From Thermoleophilia bacterium (GTDB lineage: Bacteria; Actinomycetota; Thermoleophilia; BMS3ABIN01): DNA of 35,630 nucleotides. Under the pieces are notes generated by a model that was not told where the DNA came from, did no database searches, and saw nothing but the letters and a program-made list of their open reading frames with translations. How positions within the stretch are numbered: position 1 is the first letter of the stretch; every line of letters begins with the position of its first letter. Below, piece after piece: positions 21,595 to 21,672 of the stretch. The stretch lies in NCBI GenBank assembly GCA_014874265.1, contig JACWAM010000093.1, positions 1 to 35,630 of the forward strand, given 5' to 3'. The position numbers and the translations under genes are program-made.

Positions 21595-21672
21595 GTTTCC
21601 GGTTTCCAGTTTCCAGTTTCCAGTTGATAAACAGTTTAGATAACCAGAAACTGGCAACTATAAACTAGAAAC
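21595..21672. repeat. Long heptad-repeat hairpin before the radical SAM gene
   Basis: The left arm (21595-21625) is GTTTCCG followed by GTTTCCA units; the right arm (21642-21672) has AACCAGA, AACTGGC, AACTATA and AACTAGA units. The arms are 31 nt each, inverted, and separated by 16 nt. Counting G-U wobbles on the minus-strand transcript, I find 28 of 31 positions paired. Seven T follow the 3' arm on the minus strand, so it has the shape of an oversized intrinsic terminator. It fills the spacer between the DUF697 stop (21681) and the radical SAM start (21587). Confidence 0.85.

Follow-up and report, generated by a model that had tools for sequence, protein, structure and literature searches.

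A stop-codon-anchored hairpin of heptad repeats between the DUF697 and TIGR03960 genes of an uncultured actinobacterium: a candidate leaky terminator within a genus-wide hairpin family

The spacer between a DUF697 gene and the TIGR03960 radical-SAM gene downstream of it, which measures 93 nt on the minus strand from the DUF697 stop codon to a GTG-GTG start, is taken up almost entirely by one long hairpin whose two arms are both period-7 arrays (Table 1). Judged from its sequence context, this hairpin probably acts as a leaky intrinsic terminator or attenuator between the two genes, a reading to which we assign a probability of roughly 0.55, and it belongs to a family of intercistronic hairpins that is found genus-wide and has degenerate 7-nt arrays as arms. 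The window, i.e. the whole stretch of DNA that was analyzed, is an entire contig of 35.6 kb from the 2.0-Mb genome (G000) of an uncultured actinobacterium, the closest named relatives of which are metagenome assemblies of actinobacteria under the labels Actinomycetes, Thermoleophilia or Gaiellales. On the minus strand the gene order includes mreB, mreD, PBP2, rodA, DUF697, TIGR03960, TIGR03936, RNase E/G, L21 and Obg; this cell-shape/RNA gene order is kept across the genus and has the appearance of an operon. Gene calling relied on a simple codon-usage script, by which starts are approximate and stops are firm; the DUF697 gene ends with a stop codon at 21683-21681 and probably starts nearer 22541. 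The counts cover about 0.54 Mb of G000 and 0.14-0.39 Mb of each congener, in sampled stretches.

Table 1. Positions in the window of the hairpin, the genes around it and two further heptad arrays.
Feature	Position	Strand	Remarks
Hairpin 5' arm (RNA)	21642..21673	-	AGTTTCTAGTTTATAGTTGCCAGTTTCTGGTT; GTT-type heptads, 32 nt
Hairpin loop	21626..21641	-	16 nt
Hairpin 3' arm (RNA)	21594..21625	-	AACTGGAAACTGGAAACTGGAAACCGGAAACT; AAC-type heptads, 32 nt
T7 tract	21588..21594	-	At stem base; plus strand is A7
DUF697 gene	21681..22634	-	Upstream of hairpin; longest ORF; PF05128 30.1 bits, cut-off 27.7
TIGR03960 B12-binding radical SAM gene	19818..21587	-	Downstream of hairpin; TIGR03960 E 1.8e-180
RNase E/G gene	16863-18617	-	Two genes downstream of hairpin
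GTTTCCA x4.7 array	1987..2019		Heptad also found in hairpin; same-strand spacer
GGAAACT array	29660..29712		Heptad family of hairpin; same-strand spacer

The 5' arm begins 7 nt past the DUF697 stop codon, and the first T of the T7 tract is at the same time the final base of the 3' arm (overlap at 21594). The arms are 78% Watson-Crick complementary, and in the predicted fold of the minus-strand RNA 29 pairs form between them, interrupted by three 1x1 mismatches, to give an A/U-rich stem of about 30 bp that is closed by a loop whose sequence is not common to the other hairpins of the heptad class. The predicted minimum free energy (MFE) is -32.4 kcal/mol, as compared with -18.4 +/- 2.8 for shuffled sequences (z -5.1; none of 200 shuffles equalled it), and the inverted-repeat score of 44.5 lies above both the mean (20.1) and the maximum (35.0) of 300 shuffles. 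The tandem GTG codons (21587-21582) follow the T7 immediately, with no Shine-Dalgarno sequence visible before them; in the predicted fold the GTG start codon stays unpaired, and most of the T7 is paired with an A-rich stretch upstream of the hairpin. A first-pass annotation of this sequence had correctly described a heptad hairpin with a 16-nt loop before the radical SAM gene, as well as the T7 on the minus strand and the tandem GTG without Shine-Dalgarno behind it (21594-21582). The arms that it gave as 31 nt with 28 pairs measure 32 nt with 29 pairs, the stem that it called perfect has its three mismatches, and its suggestion that the hairpin might hide the start region of the radical SAM gene does not agree with a start codon that lies unpaired outside the stem. 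Two further identities were discarded. No Rfam family scored above the gathering cut-off in the window, where only sub-threshold hairpin-like matches were seen, so that no known RNA family was recognized; and a sigma-70-like site inside the 5' arm (CAGACA-17-TATAGT, 9/12) was rejected as a promoter, its -10 not being found at the corresponding place in the spacer of the congener G005.

At the same site, a hairpin of 23-32 bp (dG -24 to -42 kcal/mol) is present in all six congeners, with T6-8 located 0-3 nt beyond it in each of them and no more than about 10-15 nt between the DUF697 stop codon and the start of the 5' arm. The arm sequences diverge, with GTTTCCG in G001, a different heptad (GTTTCAC/GTTTAAC) in G002 and a GC-rich form in G004. 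In most of the six, the TIGR03960 start lies closely behind the T-tract and lacks a clear Shine-Dalgarno sequence; in G002 the T-tract near the start is another T7 located farther along the spacer, and in G004 the likely start is found tens of nt beyond the T7. G004 keeps the hairpin at this site although 393 kb of its sequence contained no lag-7 array and its whole genome no GTTTC triplet, so that a current expansion of arrays throughout the genome does not account for this hairpin. The spacer is shorter (22-52 nt) in other genera of the family, and neither such a hairpin nor a T-run is found in it at any of ten full-length loci. Arms missing from a conserved gene order, which the first-pass annotation regarded as counting against its reading, are therefore encountered outside the genus and not within it. 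In genus g6 (L015-L018, L020-L022), CCCGGGTTCGAATCCTGG just upstream of the TIGR03960 start resembles the T-arm and 3' end of a tRNA; no tRNA was called at this spacer and no Rfam match was obtained, and a tRNA was rejected. At another locus of G004 (L149 5012-5116), a spacer of 102 nt between the orthologues of w29169 and w28527 consists of one long near-perfect hairpin (GGACGTTGCTTTCCTAA...TTAGGAAAGCAACGTCTC), which is absent in G000, where the spacer has 24 nt.

Several further spacers in the window contain period-7 arrays as well. In 358 kb of G000 there are 21 lag-7 arrays, 20 of them intergenic, and no arrays at lags 5, 8, 10, 11 or 13. In five genomes of the genus taken together, 67 of 390 same-strand spacers contain lag-7 arrays, as do 6 of 70 convergent and 1 of 53 divergent spacers (Fisher p = 0.002 for same-strand versus divergent); the divergent spacers are longer than the same-strand ones, yet poor in arrays. 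Other periods are scarce in the same-strand spacers, with 3 arrays at lag 6 and 1 at lag 8, and the arrays are heptad tandem repeats in each respect examined, being tandem 7-nt units, enriched between genes and specific to this period. The units (AACTGGA, AACTTGA, AACTTTG, AACGTGA and others) often form inverted pairs, and inverted repeats with a score of at least 30 are present in 49 of 390 same-strand spacers versus 7 after shuffling. Exact GTTTC triplets at period 7 were found in five of six congeners and in one other genome of the family, in none of the remaining classmates searched, and patchily across the phylum (14/296). Wherever a same-strand spacer contains both array types, the GTT-type precedes the AAC-type (39 to 0). 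The first array in same-strand spacers begins a median of 7 nt past the stop codon, AAC-only arrays mostly lie near the next start, and in convergent spacers the arrays likewise adjoin stop codons. A fixed order is expected of copies of one palindrome and is therefore no proof of function by itself; moreover, GAAAC-type arrays precede GTTTC-type arrays in several other members of the phylum that have GTTTC heptads, and in view of this opposite order in distant lineages the fixed order looks lineage-specific.

Some of the arrays have features of their own. An AAC-type array before the TIGR03936 gene (window 19764-19797) runs into the start codon, TTGAACTTTAATTAC being both the end of the array and the start of the TIGR03936 protein, which begins ATGAACTT in the congeners. 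The leader of rplU (L21; window 16706-16803) carries two different heptad arrays, AGCTCTT and CTTTGAA, and between G000 and G005 much of its array sequence has been replaced, with flanks that are 96% identical. A 95-nt array of GGGTTCC units is located close to a contig end (L128 44-138; G000:C40). G001 contains composite spacer elements in which GGATNCTGGAT arrays are followed by AACCCAAAACCC (L204 8737-8915, L207 15948 and 16948, L205 17276); over some 118 nt these elements agree by 70-80% from one locus to another and resemble copies of a dispersed repeat. Intergenic CTAGAAA and CCTGAAA arrays occur in unrelated lineages of the phylum (L247-L266; families f25, f19 and others).

The arrangement at the DUF697-TIGR03960 site, i.e. 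a stable hairpin with an immediate T6-8 on the transcribed coding strand, a few nt past a stop codon and in six species, is that of intrinsic terminators and attenuators, and intrinsic terminators lie where hairpins closely follow stop codons (PMC8355165). It differs from them in its 30-bp A/U-rich heptad stem with a 16-nt loop, as well as in lying within a conserved gene order and directly against the next start codon. A compact GC-rich stem with a short loop is not seen in G000, and the G004 version is GC-rich; we regard this compact shape as the canonical form and not as an absolute requirement, and suggest that the hairpin would work like a terminator rather than that it belongs to the family. 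The genus appears to make use of U-tract terminators. Hairpins of -15 kcal/mol or below stand directly before T>=5 in 25 cases on the sense strand versus 11 antisense, canonical-looking terminators are present in other spacers of the operon, and when 201 runs of T>=5 sampled in same-strand spacers are ordered by the strength of the hairpin directly upstream, the orthologues of this site in G004 and G001 come first and seventh. Only four of the 39 two-array elements have T>=6 within 12 nt, two of which are orthologues of this site, and T>=6 follows only 2 of the 37 other elements of the class. Over the whole class, U-tracts are not biased towards the sense strand (T>=5 in 7/47, A>=5 in 8/47), which led us to reject the entire class as U-tract terminators. 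At large, these hairpins may be processing or protection hairpins, U-tract-independent terminators or tolerated repeats; poly A/U trails have been reported not to be necessary for termination (PMC8355165). For the site itself, the joint retention of T6-8 and hairpin is a suggestive rather than conclusive argument for function, since the six sites share ancestry and are therefore not six independent observations, and since T>=6 occurs as background in 84 of 527 same-strand spacers.

The heptad units of the family probably expand by replication slippage, and the arms may be copied or levelled via template switching or recombination. A GTT-type arm stands just past the stop codon and an AAC-type arm towards the next start, with pairing provided by the vocabulary that the two share. 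If the hairpin at this site is a leaky terminator, transcripts coming from the DUF697 side would end at the U-tract, and the fraction that reads through would express the TIGR03960 gene and the genes after it. Termination would probably be leaky, because the downstream genes keep their order and no promoter fits between the T-tract and the start. Owing to the short distance from stop codon to 5' arm, a terminating ribosome would cover the base of the stem, and it is possible that readthrough is coupled to translation of DUF697. Alternatively, DUF697 and TIGR03960 could share a continuous mRNA in which the long imperfect duplex is cut (by RNase III or RNase E/G) or blocks 3' exonucleases, so that the two halves of the operon obtain different mRNA lifetimes and the T-tract is incidental. 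A duplex of about 30 bp is long enough for RNase III. The preference of the class for spacers between same-strand genes, its rarity in divergent spacers and its lack of U-tract bias would suit such a role, as would the RNase E/G gene in the operon. However, nothing ties this gene to the hairpin site, and the T6-8 abutting the stem in all six congeners is left unexplained, so that we consider processing or protection unlikely.

The first-pass annotation had argued that a perfect stem would demand compensatory change and hence selection on structure, and had proposed covariation in close relatives as a check. Fourteen heptad spacers were comparable between the two closest species, with flanks that are 94% identical; the heptad spacers themselves are 76% identical versus 88% for other spacers. 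Changed pairs were still paired in 66 cases versus 62.6 expected, and in 75 versus 74.6, so that compensatory covariation between the two species was rejected. Arm-specific pairing was likewise rejected in G000, where cognate arms (-0.909 kcal/mol per nt) pair no better than arms swapped between loci (-0.927); shuffled arms reach -0.33 kcal/mol per nt over all genomes tested. When all four genomes are pooled, cognate arms have a slight advantage (-0.913 versus -0.800 kcal/mol per nt), as expected because the heptad dialects differ between species. Both arms use one heptad vocabulary, and therefore any GTTTC-type arm pairs with any GAAAC-type arm; arm pairing is mainly a by-product of this shared vocabulary. 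The selection argument was accordingly not upheld, whereas the earlier suggestion that the hairpin terminates the rodA-DUF697 transcript has gained support from the T6-8 and hairpin of all six congeners.

Between the two closest species the arm lengths vary on both sides, and where G000 has a whole hairpin of GTTCAAA/GCTCAAA type, G005 has one of GTTTC type instead (L196 8374 versus L216). Template switching can create and repair hairpin stems in one event (PMC8794818), and this process, or recombination among elements, would explain both the hairpin replacement and the arm changes. Several observations would also fit a hairpin that does nothing, i.e. if a genus-specific mutational process of heptad slippage with template switching or recombination filled spacers with inverted heptad arrays, which are tolerated outside promoters and coding sequence: swapped arms pair as well as cognate ones, covariation is not in excess, turnover is very rapid between species with such similar flanks and extends to the heptad type of a whole hairpin, and template switching is known both to generate hairpins and to preserve them (PMC8794818). 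Such a neutral origin nevertheless seems distinctly unlikely, given that T6-8 and hairpin are retained in six of six species, including G004 without genome-wide arrays, and that neither the exclusive GTT-then-AAC order nor the anchoring to stop codons is expected of undirected slippage.

The close position of the T-tract before a start without clear Shine-Dalgarno sequence in most of the six congeners would also fit a U-rich translation-initiation element (e.g. for S1 binding) that replaces the Shine-Dalgarno sequence and is kept single-stranded by the hairpin. The AAC-heptads before starts would then serve translation, in the way suggested for the Beggiatoaceae TAACTGA repeats, which lie just upstream of starts in genes without Shine-Dalgarno sequence (PMC4679880). 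We regard this as very improbable, since the likely start in G004 is tens of nt away from the T7, divergent spacers, which also carry 5' UTRs, are nearly free of arrays (1/53), and most of the T7 is itself paired in the MFE fold. Insertion of a mobile palindromic element of the REP/REPIN or MITE type past the stop codon in the ancestor of the genus would account for a dispersed intergenic palindrome family with constant GTT..AAC order, for the likeness of some G001 spacers and for a DUF697-TIGR03960 spacer longer than in other genera, but it can practically be set aside, as the Y1 transposase (RAYT family; PF01797) is absent from the array-bearing genomes G000, G001, G003 and G005, the loops differ and no near-identical full-length copies were found in G000.

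Among known systems, the nearest structural precedent is the P6b stem of the Nostoc trnL intron, with its heptad classes TDNGATT (Class I) and NNTGAGT (Class II) (PMC4476775). There, too, 7-nt repeats form both arms of an RNA stem, different repeat classes build one structure and have replaced one another, and length changes by 7 nt; however, P6b is a single locus in a group I intron, whereas dozens of spacers per genome are involved here. The TAACTGA repeats of Beggiatoaceae, Cyanobacteria and Bacteroidetes are the nearest positional precedent, as they are intergenic heptad arrays with AAC on the coding strand near starts and with few Shine-Dalgarno sequences (PMC4679880). They consist of direct repeats of one fixed heptad with no predicted fold, in contrast to the many degenerate and often inverted heptads described here, which lack exact TAACTGA direct repeats and were not assigned to that system. 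REP/BIME palindromes and REPINs are also dispersed between genes; here there is no fixed element sequence, the arms being heptad arrays, and membership was rejected because the four array-bearing genomes lack the transposase, the loops are all different and the arm heptads vary. Long simple sequence repeats of 5-11 nt, of which heptads are the commonest, are known from scattered bacteria and were attributed to slippage (Mrazek 2007, as cited in PMC4679880). They share the enrichment of heptad tandem repeats, and their description as cited there is without inverted pairing or stop-codon anchoring. In the open-licence literature searched, no description of stop-anchored inverted hairpins with heptad arms was found.

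It is conceivable, if doubtful, that the hairpins are a genus-specific form of gene punctuation, placed after stop codons with a GTT-arm followed by an AAC-arm, written in a species-typical vocabulary that turns over between loci, and used as signals for transcript ends or the segmentation of operons. In these elements, long RNA hairpins arise and turn over naturally because the two arms are drawn from a single set of 7-nt words, and pairing thus survives without arm-by-arm compensatory change; tests of structure conservation and covariation would go wrong on such elements in either direction. If the punctuation reading is true, function would be carried by a structure of interchangeable repeat words and not by conserved sequence, and if the hairpins terminate transcription, the genus would build its terminators from a mutable repeat system.
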